Source of the DNA: Aurantiochytrium sp. KH105
Lineage: Eukaryota > Sar > Bigyra > Thraustochytrida > Thraustochytriidae
DNA: 64,000 bases
NCBI GenBank assembly: GCA_003116975.1
Contig: BGKB01000169.1
Span: 1-64,000, forward strand
Direction: 5' to 3'
In this document: in pieces, positions 55,527 through 62,261 of the stretch
Numbering within the stretch: the stretch's first letter is position 1
Layout: each line of letters begins with the position of its first letter
Translations under genes and position numbers: made by a program
Notes under the pieces: generated by a model
Seen by the model: the letters and a program-made list of their open reading frames with translations, nothing else
What the model was told of the DNA's origin: nothing
The model's database searches: none

Positions 55527-56801
55527 TTATGGCGCAATTTGATTACGCAGCTCCGCAATTCTCACTGCCTCGAGCATTTGGACACTGCGCCAAGTATGTA
55601 TTTTGCCAGCAAAGTGCACCAAAAGGAACCCGTCCGAATATTCCCAAGGGTGACATTCCGGGTATCGCTCGTATTCGTCGTAGCACGTGTTGGTATTCAG
55701 CGCGCATGGCTCTACAATCTTCGTCTTGGCCCGAACTTCCTTCCAGGCCGGGTATCTTGGTCTGCCGTACTTTAATGCATTCGCAGTCAATGCTTCAGAG
55801 TTATAGAGGTACTGAATCGCGCGCTGCTCAAATTGAAACGGGTGATGACCATCGACCAGCCAGGTCTGGTTCCAGCATTCGGACAGCCACCATTGGGACC
55901 ATTCTGAACTGTGGACAATGAATACGCCCGAATTGATACCGGCAGCGTCAGCTGAAAAGAAGAGTTCATGCTCGCTGTCCACCAAATCTTCAATGGCGAT
56001 CGACATATTCATGAAAATGGCGTCCACGTCAGACCACATAATATAGTCGTATTCTGGCAGATACTTTCTCATAATTGACAGCTTCGACCACGCCGGTTGA
56101 CGGGTTGGATCAATTTCGCTGTCCCCGATAATTACATCGTATCCATGGCGACTCGCATACGCTTCCTTGTTGGCCAATGACGCATTTCGGGCGCGTGGAT
56201 CAATATTTAATGCAAAGGTCAGGAGCCCAACACGGGCTTTTGCACCACTCTTATACGACTGCGACGCCCGCCGCGCTGCAACAGCGTCCGCAGCGAGGTA
56301 CTCACATTCCCTCGAGGGTGCAAGTGGATCGAACATCGGAGGTTCTTCGAGCGAACTCGTCTCTTGCTGAGAAGCACTAGCTTGACCCCTGTATTTATGT
56401 TTCCTCCTGTGACCCACTAGCCTCTTCGAGGAACCAGGTTTGTTGTCGGACTCGTTGCTCCCTGAGAAAAGGTCCTTTTCTGATGAATCTGCTGACGATG
56501 TAGTAACCGAGTTCAAGTCATGATTTCCGTCGGGAACGACAACGTCGCCAAAGGCGCCGTTTCCGAAATCGGCGCTTGGGGCGGTCACGAGGGAGCTATT
56601 TATTTGCCATCCAATAAAGACAATGAGCGGTAGCCCCAAAATTGCGAGTGCGCGAATTAGCCCGGGGCCTGTTGTTGCTCGCTTTCGGTCCCCGCTGCTT
56701 TCCTCCGGGGCCAGCACGTCTTGTATCCGCTCGCTACCTCGCCTCGGCCGCGAGTGGGTTGACCCCGCGACTTGCGCACGCTCAACGTCCATGGCCGTCA
56801 T
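55527..56801 (-). CDS. Single-domain GT34-like glycosyltransferase, type II membrane protein
   Basis: 424 aa if started at the ATG at 56801; the next ATG (56792, good context gccATGg) is equally plausible. The frame is open upstream to 56993, but that part is Arg-rich without features. The N-terminus is basic and acidic, then a membrane anchor (LIRALAILGLPLIVFIGW), a Ser/Asp-rich stem, and one catalytic domain. The domain has FDPLAPSRECEY, GYDVIIGDSEIDP, the DxD site in MWSDVDAIFMN, NSGVFIVHSSEWSQWW and LVHFAGK. These align with every copy of the triple-domain neighbour, so the two genes are tandem paralogues on the same strand. This one is more diverged, so it may represent the ancestral one-domain form. 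Golgi location and a role in glycan or glycoprotein synthesis are inferred. Confidence 0.9.
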   Translation of the reverse strand: MTAMDVERAQVAGSTHSRPRRGSERIQDVLAPEESSGDRKRATTGPGLIRALAILGLPLIVFIGWQINSSLVTAPSADFGNGAFGDVVVPDGNHDLNSVTTSSADSSEKDLFSGSNESDNKPGSSKRLVGHRRKHKYRGQASASQQETSSLEEPPMFDPLAPSRECEYLAADAVAARRASQSYKSGAKARVGLLTFALNIDPRARNASLANKEAYASRHGYDVIIGDSEIDPTRQPAWSKLSIMRKYLPEYDYIMWSDVDAIFMNMSIAIEDLVDSEHELFFSADAAGINSGVFIVHSSEWSQWWLSECWNQTWLVDGHHPFQFEQRAIQYLYNSEALTANALKYGRPRYPAWKEVRAKTKIVEPCALNTNTCYDEYERYPECHPWEYSDGFLLVHFAGKIHTWRSVQMLEAVRIAELRNQIAP

Positions 56802-58215
56802 GGCGTCGCTTTTCGATCGCTCAAGCGAACGTCGCCGCGGTGGGCGCTCTTTGCCCCACAAGTGCCGCAACGCAACGCCAGACCTCTCCCCTCGCGCAGC
56901 TCCGGCCCTGGCCTCGCCCTGTTCACCTCCCGTGCGCACGCGCGAGGGCGCGCGAGGCTCGGCCGCGGCAATAAGTAAGTGCCTACGTGGCACGTGCGTT
57001 AGAGATTTGGTGTATAGGCCCCTTCTATGTGTGCATCATTTATTCATTGCGCATGTTTCTTTCATTCATTTTCATTCACTGTCAGTCCATAGGCCTACCT
57101 CTTATTCTCCAGGACGACGCGTGGCTCGACCGCGAGCGAGGGATTATCCACGAGCATCCGGAGGGTCTGCGCTGGACGTGGGTTCTAGGTGTGCGGGTCG
57201 AGGCTGCGTGAGACAAGAATGAGCGGGAGCGCAGCTCGAGCTGCTCGTTGAGGAGGGTTCAATTACTTACCTGCTTGCTCACAGGACGCATAAGGCACGG
57301 AGACTTGTCGCTGAGACGATGAGTGTGGCGCTAATCGCAGCAGAACAAAAAGACTGACACGGACGCCAAATCTGCAAGGAAAGTCGTGCCGCGGTGTGCC
57401 AGCATTTGAGGTTACACGTAGAGTGCAAGGAAATATCCGAGACTTGAAGCATGGGGGGTCTATAATGATCATACTGACCGTGCAAGTAATTTTTTCGGCA
57501 TAGCTGAATTCTGAGCAGGGGCAGACTGGCAATCTAAGGTCGAACGAGACTGGGGTAGGTTGCGACCTGTCAAAGCTATGCGTGGAAGTAAGCGGCAAGC
57601 GTGTTGTCAAGATTATTCGCCGATTTCTTTGAGCTATAGATTGAGCGGTGAACGACACAGATCCGCCAAGCCAAAAGTAAATGCAGAAAGTCTCGTGGGG
57701 CTGGTTCGATAAATGTAGGCCTCAAATCTGTGCTCAGTAAGTCGGCAAAAAAGGAAGAGAAGTTCGGGGAAATGAATATATTTTCGTAGCGAGCGCGTGC
57801 ATAAATTTTAGGTGATATTCCTGGGGTAATGATTAATGCCGTGGGTTGAAAACAAAGAAGTCAAAGATGCTTCAATGTTTTTCGATAGTGCCTCTAAAGG
57901 TTTCGCAAGCAGCTTTCATTTCATTTCACGCTCTTCGTGGAACGAAACTCTTGCTCATCTTGGCATCACATCTTTGGTTCTTGAAAACAATGCTGTTGCC
58001 ACGACGCGATCGATCGCTTGCGGAGAAAGGAGTCTTTCGGCTCAAGAGCCGACCGCAAGGGGTGCTGTCAGGGAATATATGGGCCACAGACTAGACAGAG
58101 GTTGACAAGTTGATATGAGTCGCCTTTTTGTAGTCTGACAGGTGCAAGCGATGCAATAAATTGTCGACTCACTGTCAGGAGGCCACTTCGTTTGTCGTCC
58201 TCTCCCCCTCTCTTC

Positions 58216-58267
<52 letters not shown>

Positions 58268-58405: not shown

Positions 58406-60341
58406 ATGGGTAGCGGGCTGACGAAGCCAGCCGGTGAGGCAGGGGCACTCGCACGGCTGCAAGAGATCAGAAGTGAGAACCTGCAATCAGGCGACATCGA
58501 CAATGACCAGAACAAGGATGCCGAAACTCTACGCGCAGAACTCTGTGAGATCAAAACAGCCCTTTGCAAAGTAAACCTCGAGGACCTTATCAAGGAGGCA
58601 AGGCTCGCCGATGCCAAGGCAAAGCTCGAGCGCCTGAGGACTATCGACCCCTTTGTCCTTGACAACTCCATGCGCGAGACGACAGTTGCACAGGTCAAAG
58701 GCCACTCACTTCAAGATAAGCTGGAGATTCTGCAGCATGTTCGCAAAACTGGCCTCGAACACATTATCGTAGGCGCACTCGGTCGCCTCAAACGAGTCGA
58801 CAATGAACTTCTCGAGTACTTTCAAGATCAAAATGAGGATCGCAGCAAATTCTATCTTTTCACTGAGCTTTTTGAAAAGGTTGACCCGGATACAAGATTG
58901 CCAAATGCCACGCTTCCAGCGTCACTGCAAATTGCAAAGGACTGCGGCATTCCCAATGTCATTGTAGAGATCGATCTTTCGCATCCGGACATTGACTGGG
59001 ACGCCGCACTGCCTCGCGAGTCAGATCCACCCTACTTTGCCCTCCTCGCGGACCGAGTTGCCTGGATCCGTGCTCATCTTTGTGCTGATGCAAGAATTTT
59101 CTTCAACTTTCGCGATTGGCTCGTCACATGGCACAACCACCCAACGCGTGTCGAGCGCGTCGCAAGCTTTTTTGCCAATGCCGCACCCGAGGAACGTATC
59201 ATGGGCTTTTGCGTCGAAGATCCATCCGGCGCCTTTCTCCCCTTTCAGTACGCAGATCCTGTGCAAAGGCTACGCGAAGCCATGGATCAGCACGATTGGG
59301 CGGACGGCCATATTCTCGTCCATATACATAAAAATTATGGGCTTGCCGAAGCTTCGGCACTTGAAGTCCTCGCGCTCGGCGCGACCGGCGTGTGGTGTGG
59401 CATCCCTGACGAGGGTGCCGCTGTAGGCCACGCCTGCTCGTGTGTTCTTCTTACAAATCTTGCACGACTTGGTAACACGCGCGTGCTCGAGCGCTACAAC
59501 TTTCCAGCACTCCGCGAAGCCGCCATCGAAATCACGCGGCTAATCACCGACGAGCCTCCGCATCCACGAACTGAAGTCTATGGTGCGCGGGCACTTGACG
59601 TCATCTTTGAGGGCATCAACACAGCCAACGACCCGTTAGCAAAGAATTTCGATGTCAATACCCTTTTCCAAGTTCCGGTTCAGACGCGGATCAGCACCAT
59701 GGCCACGGCCTCCATGATGGCGGATCGCCTTGCCGAAGTGTTTGGCCCCGAGGCGCGCCAGACAGCCTCTGTAGCTGTCTGCGAGCAAATGGTGGTAAGT
59801 TTACGATACATTCCGCTTTGTCTCGACGCCAGGCGCATACTCACAATGTTTGGAATCTTATCTTTTCACACAGGAAACTCTACACGATGACTTGCGCCAA
59901 GGCCGAGAGGAAGAGTACCAATCGACTGTGGGCATCTTTTCTCTCTTTGAACGGAGTGGTGGCGTCCCGACAGAGGCCATGATCAGCGTAATCGACCACG
60001 ATGCGTCTCTCGATAAACATCCAGTACTTGTGGCGCTCAGAGCTTATTTTGATGTTTGGGACTACAAGGACCATGCCAAGGACGACTGCATTTCGTTTGA
60101 CAACTTTTATGACGCATTCATGGCGCGATTTCTCACATGTTACTCTTGCGAAAAGGCCCGAAAGCTGTTTGCGGCCGCTGATCTCAGCCACGACGGCGCC
60201 ATACAGTGGCGTGAAATTGCTTTGCGCGCAAAATGGGCTCTTACTGAGTACCCCAAGCTAGTCACCAATGTCCAGGATCTCATTGGCGTCATCATGGAGC
60301 AATACTTTCTGCCTGAAATGCTACGGACTTGTCAAACGTAA
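58406..60341 (+). CDS. DRE-TIM metallolyase-like protein fused to EF-hands, myristoylation signal
   Basis: Two exons, 58406-59794 and 59874-60341, joined in phase 0, give 618 aa. The ATG at 58406 (context accATGg) starts MGSGLTKP, a good N-myristoylation signal; an upstream in-frame ATG at 58307 would hide it. Residues ~75-450 look like the TIM barrel of the HMG-CoA lyase/isopropylmalate synthase superfamily. The first strand is VLDNSMRETT, where Arg90 is kept and the usual metal-binding Asp is Glu91. ILVHIHKNYGLAEASALEV holds the H-x-H metal pair (306, 308), and ALGATGVWCGIPDEGAAVGH is the following loop. A C-terminal EF-hand has a full loop DLSHDGAIQWRE (566-577); the one before it (near YFDVWDYKDHA) is degenerate. 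A calcium-responsive, membrane-tethered lyase-like protein is inferred; the reaction is unknown. Confidence 0.85.
59795..59873 (+). other. Spliceosomal intron, 79 nt
   Basis: Donor GTAAGT at 59795, acceptor CACACAG ending 59873. Splicing joins two frames in phase 0: the first frame otherwise runs into unrelated residues, while the second begins mid-protein with an EF-hand region. This is the only intron I can place with confidence. Confidence 0.85.
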
Positions 60342-61349: not shown

Positions 61350-62261
61350 ATGGCAACCCGTCTCGACGAAGCGATCGCTCTTGACCTCGTCAAAGGCGAC
61401 GCCGAGGGGTCCACGTGGCGCGGCCTTATCACCGACAAATACAATGTTTTCATCGTGCCGAATGGTGGTCTGCTGATGGCTCTCATCTTGCGCGCGATGC
61501 GTAATGAGCAGAAGCGCCATGGACTCGACAAGGAATCCAATCTTGACTGTCTCCACATGCAGCACTCCTTCCTTGCAGCCACCGTGGGAAACGCCCCGTG
61601 CGACATCACAGTGCGTGTCATCAAACGCGGCAGAACCCTTTCCTGGGTCTCTGCAGAGCTCCAGCAGGCTGCCAAGGTCCGCATCATGGCCATTGCGGGC
61701 TTTGGCAAGTACGATCCCTGCCCAGCAACCAACTACATCCCGGTGGAAGATGTCAAGCTTATCAACACTCAAAGCGAAAGGTTCAAATCTTCTTCCATTC
61801 CCAAAGGCAACGGTGAGACGCGCGAGCTTTTCAGCCGCTGGGTTTGGAACTTTCCTCCCGGTGACAAAGACGTCTATCTCCGCATGACCTCGCAGCAGGA
61901 GCACCCGGACCCGTGTCCCACCAAGTTCAACGTCTATATGCGCCATGAAGATCGTAGCGAGCCCATTACTGTAGAATCCTTGGTTGCCATTTCTGACGCG
62001 GCGATTCCTACGATCAAGGCGCTTCTGCCCTTTGGGAACATGGGTTGGGTTCCTACTCTCTCCTTCAATTCGTATCTCTTTGCCGAGCCGCGTCCTGACC
62101 TCGAGTGGGTCTACTGCGAGTTCAACCTCGAGGCTGCGAGCGAGGGTCGTAGCATTCAGGGTGTCTCGATCTTTGACCCGGAGACCGGCGCTCTTTTGTG
62201 CAGAGCCTCGCAAGGCGCTCTCAACGTAGCCGAGCAAAAGGATCAGTCCAGTAAGATATAG
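61350..62261 (+). CDS. Acyl-CoA thioesterase-like protein, double hotdog
   Basis: 303 aa, no transit or signal peptide visible. Layout fits the TesB-like/thioesterase-like superfamily with two hotdog halves. The first (~15-130) has VPNGGLLMALILRAM as the long central helix entry, HSFLA and VIKRGRTLSWVSAEL, a strand pair typical of these enzymes. The second (~165-290) has a matching pair ending in EWVYCEFNLEAASEGRSIQGVSIFDPETGALLCRASQGAL, the usual closing strand-turn-strand with the D-x-x-G-x-L motif. Such proteins cleave acyl-CoA to fatty acid and CoA. Specific substrate and compartment cannot be read. It is convergent with the next gene, only 34 bp between stop codons. Confidence 0.85.
   Translation: MATRLDEAIALDLVKGDAEGSTWRGLITDKYNVFIVPNGGLLMALILRAMRNEQKRHGLDKESNLDCLHMQHSFLAATVGNAPCDITVRVIKRGRTLSWVSAELQQAAKVRIMAIAGFGKYDPCPATNYIPVEDVKLINTQSERFKSSSIPKGNGETRELFSRWVWNFPPGDKDVYLRMTSQQEHPDPCPTKFNVYMRHEDRSEPITVESLVAISDAAIPTIKALLPFGNMGWVPTLSFNSYLFAEPRPDLEWVYCEFNLEAASEGRSIQGVSIFDPETGALLCRASQGALNVAEQKDQSSKI

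Follow-up and report, generated by a model that had tools for sequence, protein, structure and literature searches.

The window, the whole stretch of 64,000 nucleotides analysed from the Aurantiochytrium sp. KH105 genome, contains a gene whose product is almost certainly a member of the ilborin family. The protein would combine a divergent, metal-dependent barrel of the homocitrate synthase type with a C-terminal Ca2+-binding EF-hand and an added, probably myristoylated N-terminal extension. The best explanation overall, to which we assign a probability of about 0.6, is a metal-dependent barrel enzyme tuned by Ca2+. This calcium-tuned metalloenzyme is the most likely reading, perhaps with a link to ovothiol metabolism. 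The features of the gene are the following.

58406..59794, + strand: exon 1 (residues 1-463), with the N-terminal extension, the entire barrel and the beginning of the post-barrel region
58406..58570, + strand: N-terminal extension (about residues 1-55) with the myristoylation-type start MGSGLTK, which the three intact EF-type proteins of cyanobacteria lack
58649..59668, + strand: DRE-TIM or homocitrate-synthase-like barrel region (residues 82-421)
58673..58678, + strand: Arg90-Glu91, assigned by homology as substrate arginine and first metal ligand, with Glu replacing Asp as in homocitrate synthase
59321..59329, + strand: His306-x-His308, metal-binding motif predicted from homology in the alignments
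59429..59431, + strand: His342 at the strand-8 GN position (His in six of seven aligned family rows, Asn in L154)
59795..59873, + strand: intron of 79 nt, phase 0, GT-AG (GTAAGT...CACAG), with splice sites kept in both alleles
59874..60341, + strand: exon 2 (residues 464-618), with the remaining conserved post-barrel tail, the degenerate and canonical EF-hand loops, a C-terminal stretch and the stop codon
60069..60104, + strand: degenerate EF-like loop DHAKDDCISFDN (residues 529-540)
60180..60218, + strand: canonical EF-hand loop DLSHDGAIQWREI (residues 566-578), aligned with DIDGNGYVSWQEF of the cyanobacterial protein from locus L124

The gene is real, and the spliced exons encode a protein of 618 amino acids. 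The host genome (76 Mb, 367 contigs) has two matches to each exon, one in the window and one in contig C78, with 99% identity in exon 1 and 98% in exon 2. We read these copies as two alleles. Their coding sequences of 1857 nt differ by 31 substitutions (23 in exon 1, 8 in exon 2) and no indels. Codon position 3 carries 22 of the 31 (four of the eight in exon 2), and the differing codons are silent in 21 cases and residue-changing in eight. The second allele keeps the frame, the splice sites and all motifs. There are two substitutions in the intron, compared with 122 substitutions and 185 gap columns per 1547 columns of the 5' flank and 43 substitutions and 474 gap columns per 1190 columns of the 3' flank. 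NG86 estimates are dN 0.0063 and dS 0.053 for the whole coding sequence (dN/dS about 0.12), dN 0.0047 and dS 0.057 for exon 1, and dN 0.011 and dS 0.040 for exon 2 (dN/dS about 0.28). Constraint between the alleles is clear for the whole coding sequence and exon 1, and weaker for exon 2 taken alone.

A CT-rich simple repeat (window 58200-58265) is seen by eye about 140 bp 5' of the start codon, in a flank that diverges strongly between the alleles. The neighbouring genes encode a GT34-type glycosyltransferase (window 55527-56993, - strand) and an acyl-CoA thioesterase-like protein (window 61350-62261, + strand), neither with an evident link to the ilborin gene. An Rfam scan of the window gave zero matches. 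Elsewhere in the host, PfaA-type omega-3 PUFA synthase matches were observed on separate frames in contigs C72, C155, C290 and C61. The PfaA model scores 930 bits for the first part and 456 bits for the last part, on another contig, and no match exceeds the 1010-bit cut-off; among 14 control genomes 11 have a match, again none over the cut-off. Such matches would suit a labyrinthulomycete, and so would the published Hondaea match.

The sequence-only reading had known of no described enzyme with this architecture. It is, in fact, that of the ilborins, described by Borisenko et al. 2022 (PMC8864356) as proteins with an aldolase-type TIM barrel and a C-terminal EF-hand. Ilborins were reported from sponges, cnidarians, ctenophores, echinoderms, one flatworm and two cyanobacteria (Moorea producens and Okeania hirsuta), with a full-length match, A0A2R5GS87, in the thraustochytrid Hondaea, and were reported absent from chordates (PMC8864356). 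They are 560-610 residues long and contain two metal-binding histidines and an Arg-Glu pair, the latter missing in three shortened sequences; the Glu after Arg is the homocitrate synthase state (PMC8864356). Flagellated cells of the sponge larva reportedly have ilborin as their major protein; functional studies are, according to the authors, still ahead (PMC8864356). The window protein has the barrel followed by the EF-hand in one chain, the Arg-Glu pair, the two histidines and a single canonical EF loop. Its 618 residues exceed the ilborin range, and the surplus sits in the N-terminal extension.

A profile built from the two alleles matched 33 of 386 genomes of the cyanobacterial phylum at E 0.001. 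Two of them stand out, G787 with 209.6 bits and G662 with 121 bits, the others having at most 28 bits. The G787 protein (locus L124) is encoded by a single intronless frame of 580 residues from Met and contains both the barrel and the EF loop. Aligned with residues 69-588 of the spliced protein from the window, it shows 30% identity (E 2e-81 with the database size set to 1e8), and exon 2 alone matches it at E 2.8e-7. Since this alignment crosses residues 463/464, it supports both the splice and the fusion without RNA. The G662 protein (locus L125) is EF-less and 28% identical, and the one in L154 (genome G1068), with 26% identity in the alignment and its end cut by the contig, has no EF-hand that we could find. 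L154:1-1521 encodes an ilborin-type barrel followed by an extra C-terminal stretch, and HMGL-like is its only Pfam match.

Within the order, eight of 243 genomes matched at E 1e-8, four with over 700 bits, although G787 and G662 among these four were themselves query rows, and four with 36-41 bits. A search with the L124 protein found seven of 388 genomes at E 1e-20: G787, G845, G924, G1023, G983, where just the EF end is present, and two distant ones, G662 and G1068. In a small tree whose other rows are all cyanobacterial, the window alleles join the EF-type rows with support 82/90, on an unstarred branch that carries a long-branch warning. Ilborin was not seen in the phylum of G015 (31 of 398 genomes at E 0.001, at most 30.5 bits). 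A degenerate-pattern search of prokaryotic genome contigs and viral contigs gave no confirmed relative; the viral contigs also gave none with the host pyruvate carboxylase as query. Plasmids gave zero tblastn matches at E 1, and the best match from a search at E 10, at E 0.8, is a phosphotriesterase, judged to be due to chance. PHROGs gave nothing at E 1.

Unspliced, the first frame ends at the stop at 59890, as would be expected if a barrel gene and a separate EF-hand gene had been misjoined. We consider this hardly credible: one bacterial reading frame aligns across the exon junction, both alleles keep the splice sites, and exon 2 has no in-frame ATG ahead of residue 499. The two-gene reading was rejected on the strength of the intronless homolog spanning the junction. 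The 79-nt phase-0 splice at 59795-59873 agrees with the sequence-only reading, which had, however, placed it exactly between the barrel and the EF-hand part. The L125 protein aligns by blastp up to residue 495 of the window protein, so that the first 32 residues of exon 2 are barrel tail, and the canonical EF loop begins only at the 103rd residue of this exon; the intron is therefore not exactly at the domain boundary. Nor does an origin by exon-level fusion hold, as the intronless L124 protein has the same barrel and EF-hand joined across the junction.

Homology of the barrel to DRE-TIM metallolyases was found with several profiles. The Pfam HMGL-like model matches residues 267-372 at E 1.3e-5 with 25.2 bits, below its cut-off of 29, and the NCBIfam citramalate synthase model matches residues 84-381 at E 1.4e-5, far under its cut-off. 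Scores with the NCBIfam homocitrate, isopropylmalate and citramalate synthase models do not exceed 23.7 bits, against cut-offs of 413-748. An hhalign comparison between the two alleles and 95 DRE-TIM sequences, chosen by a pattern requiring Arg-Asp, with four others dropped and duplicates removed, gave E 7.4e-7 and a probability of 91.8% over 307 columns (residues 82-421). An alignment of seven ilborin rows, few and non-independent (the two window alleles, three closely related cyanobacterial EF-type proteins and the two EF-less proteins), matched the DRE-TIM sequences in a profile comparison at E 3e-13 with 98.0% over 321 columns. With the two-allele profile and E <=1 as threshold, 25 of 30 genomes, drawn from a set of 80, gave a match. 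With the seven-row alignment nine distinct solved sequences were found at E 0.01, the best being the homocitrate synthases 3A9I (E 6.5e-10) and 2ZTJ (E 6.8e-10), whose LREGEQ is in register with the ilborin SxRE motif. The barrel homology proposed by the sequence-only reading is borne out.

The residues of the predicted metal site are conserved. Arg90, Glu91, His306 and His308 are present in all seven rows, as the sequence-only reading had noted for the window protein (Arg kept, Asp replaced by Glu, HxH kept). Thirty-eight columns are invariant over the seven rows, many of them polar, including His100, Glu271, Trp330, Arg354 and Asn357, and this would fit a kept active site. Roles of the residues were taken from methylthioalkylmalate synthase (MAMS, PMC11532901) and HMG-CoA lyase (PMC6941031); in the latter the Asn of the strand-8 GN (Asn275), at the position of our His342, is a metal ligand. 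With these four residues kept, binding of a metal and a carboxylate is likely.

Other hallmarks of the superfamily are absent. A TIM barrel is indicated by sequence homology, and the arginine, the acidic metal ligand and HxH are in place. However, the strand-2 DRE glutamate is found in none of the seven rows, being replaced by Ile in the window (Ile121) and EF-type proteins (five rows), Leu in L125 and Val in L154, and the strand-8 GER is gone in the alignment with DRE-TIM sequences. Without this glutamate the window protein is better called homologous to the DRE-TIM metallolyases than a canonical member of them. The hydrophobic residue in all seven rows and the loss of GER make classical chemistry unlikely and a non-catalytic role possible; the exact chemistry must presumably differ from that of textbook superfamily members. 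The column that matches the GIH histidine of IPMS has Asn405 in the window protein, His in the three EF-type cyanobacterial rows, and Met and Glu in the EF-less rows; it is the likely site of the Claisen base. If the GIH His is, as its spacing suggests, His388 of the related enzyme MAMS, a MAMS mutant with the same His-to-Asn change retains some activity (PMC11532901).

One alternative is that ilborin is a non-catalytic Ca2+ sensor or scaffold, whose pseudoenzyme barrel binds a metabolite or a partner while the EF-hand reports Ca2+ and the lipid anchors the protein. The absence of the DRE glutamate from all seven rows, the missing GER and the Asn405 of the host at the likely base position agree with it. 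However, no row, bacterial or eukaryotic, has lost the Arg, the Glu or either His, and a pseudoenzyme would often lose a metal ligand over such a distance. We thus regard a pure sensor as rather unlikely. An active metalloenzyme is somewhat favoured by the conserved residues, and the chemistry of this probable metal enzyme would be an altered one.

The C-terminal EF-hand of the sequence-only reading is present as one canonical loop (566-578); the second loop (529-540) is degenerate, with Asn at position 12, where an acid is expected. The canonical loop DLSHDGAIQWREI is the sole match in six frames of the window to the EF-hand loop pattern PS00018. Of 20000 shuffled versions of exon 2, 26 contained the pattern, and of 20000 of the whole protein, 65 did. 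All Pfam EF-hand models remained under their curated cut-offs (at best 21 bits against 30), so it is best described as an EF-hand-like loop and not as a domain scored by Pfam. The canonical loop is common to both alleles and to three of three intact cyanobacterial EF-type proteins, and Ca2+ binding by the window protein is quite likely.

The N-terminus begins with MGSGLTK in both alleles, as expected from the N-myristoylation signal proposed earlier. The heptapeptide matches the N-myristoylation pattern PROSITE PS00008. Gly2 and permissive residues up to position 7 are present, a combination with a chance of about 0.008 given the composition of the protein, and we consider myristoylation fairly probable. 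The Arg-Glu pair, at residues 90-91 in the window protein, is at residues 35-36 in the EF-type cyanobacterial proteins. As these lack the extension, a membrane anchor, if real, is probably an addition on the eukaryotic side.

In the proposed mechanism, the barrel would hold a divalent metal via Glu91, His306 and His308. The metal and Arg90 would together bind the substrate, a 2-oxo acid or a comparable carboxylate. The barrel would then make or break a C-C (or C-S) bond adjacent to the carboxylate. Ca2+ at the EF-hand, beyond the C-terminal region of the barrel, may tune activity or partner binding, and the lipid would keep the protein at the membrane. The earlier suggestion of a calcium-controlled, membrane-tethered lyase or sensor is still a reasonable guess; apart from the anchor, it is the proposal of the ilborin authors (PMC8864356).

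The genomic context in cyanobacteria provides a further lead. At all five EF-type loci (three with intact ilborins, one frame-broken, one with the EF end only) a two-domain ovoA gene lies directly upstream on the same strand, at a spacing of 84-308 bp. In L147, L148 and L149 ovoA encodes 717 residues from Met, and the gaps to ilborin are 217, 99 and 100 bp. The gap in L152 is 308 bp, and in L153 the ovoA frame is followed after 84 bp by only the EF end of ilborin. The broken ilborin copy, in G924, is split into a frame of 482 residues and a second frame with the EF part. Full ovoA copies score 614-619 bits with TIGR04344, exceeding its cut-off of 400; the L142 copy, named OvoA by NCBIfam, scores 216.9 bits with TIGR04345 (cut-off 170) and 278 bits with TIGR04344, the gene being cut by the locus end. 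When flanks of 0.66-2.6 kb were compared, only the ovoA-side flanks of L147, L148 and L149 matched each other, and those of L152 and L153 matched no other, so that the five loci have three different upstream contexts.

Of the 243 genomes in the order, 67 have OvoA, and most of these frames are 441-494 residues long. The ilborin-linked ovoA are frames of 780 residues and are second OvoA copies in the three genomes concerned; long OvoA frames are also present in G976 (726) and G949 (550), which have no ilborin match. All four ilborin-family genomes of this set carry OvoA, but we did not take this co-occurrence as a test, since three of the four are close kin. At the EF-less locus L150 no ovoA was seen by eye among the frames. 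The host has a 904-residue frame that passes the cut-off for the C-terminal OvoA model and does not share a contig with ilborin; one of 14 control genomes is also above the cut-off.

One possibility is that ilborin acts with OvoA in ovothiol or 5-thiohistidine metabolism. Its substrate might then be, for instance, the sulfoxide product, 5-thiohistidine or a 2-oxo acid released in the lyase step. The constant position of ovoA in three upstream contexts, the four of four genomes against 67 of 243 and the host frame speak for it. Amphimedon and Nematostella are reported to have both OvoA and ilborin (PMC4768315; PMC8864356). However, the neighbourhood, although suggestive, comes from five related genomes (OvoA 89-97% identical), and the adjacency may thus be one event. 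Moreover, 63 of the 67 OvoA-positive genomes, including G976, have no clear ilborin, ovoA does not adjoin the EF-less relative in L150, and the two host genes are on different contigs. Annelids, molluscs, Branchiostoma and Ciona are among the animals listed with OvoA (PMC4768315), whereas ilborin was reported absent from chordates, and OvoB, the lyase already known, depends on PLP (PMC9890322). We therefore consider this role doubtful. Equally tentative is the idea that ovoA and ilborin form an old two-gene unit, whose members are still neighbours in a few marine cyanobacteria and lie apart in the protist and in marine animals, and in which the homocitrate-synthase-like barrel, with a new chemistry, would process thiohistidine or an OvoA-adjacent 2-oxo acid under Ca2+ control. 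The ilborin paper mentions neither ovothiol nor OvoA (PMC8864356), and the adjacency was not found in the literature searched. Among the matches listed for OvoA with the cyanobacterial genera (ten of 85 papers), none showed an occurrence of OvoA.

The host OvoA C-terminal-domain gene is at C210:258418-259194 and in C226, and a weaker second gene is in C251 and C249; each pair probably represents alleles.

What is new here is the anatomy of the family, with EF-less relatives, a fusion that is also present without an intron and a myristoyl-type extension on the host side, and the ovoA neighbourhood of the EF-type cyanobacterial ilborins. The latter is the first concrete pathway lead for ilborin. 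The protist ilborin, with one allele pair, and the compact bacterial homologs offer simple assay systems, and the EF-less relatives make it possible to compare proteins with and without the Ca2+ module.

Among known systems, the cyanobacterial proteins of L125 and L154 share the barrel signature and the post-barrel tail with the window protein, but no EF-hand was found in them. Homocitrate synthase (2ZTJ/3A9I; mitochondrial 3IVS) has the same barrel, with Glu as first metal ligand after Arg, and HxH; unlike it, the window protein lacks the strand-2 glutamate and scores far under the NCBIfam cut-offs. To our knowledge, there is no EF-hand in homocitrate synthase or in the human HMG-CoA lyase er-cHL, the product of HMGCLL1. 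The latter belongs to the same superfamily and also has an N-myristoylation motif, MGNVPSA, which is thought to explain its membrane association, but it retains the Asp, Asn and Glu active-site residues (PMC6941031). The sponge ilborins (Halisarca dujardini ilborin A-D and orthologues) have in common with the window protein the barrel, the C-terminal EF-hand with one canonical loop, Arg-Glu and the two metal His (PMC8864356). Myristoylation and introns go unmentioned in that paper. The window protein differs in its extra N-terminal stretch of roughly 55 residues, which opens with a myristoylation-type sequence, whereas the sponge ilborins are held to be cytoplasmic (PMC8864356).
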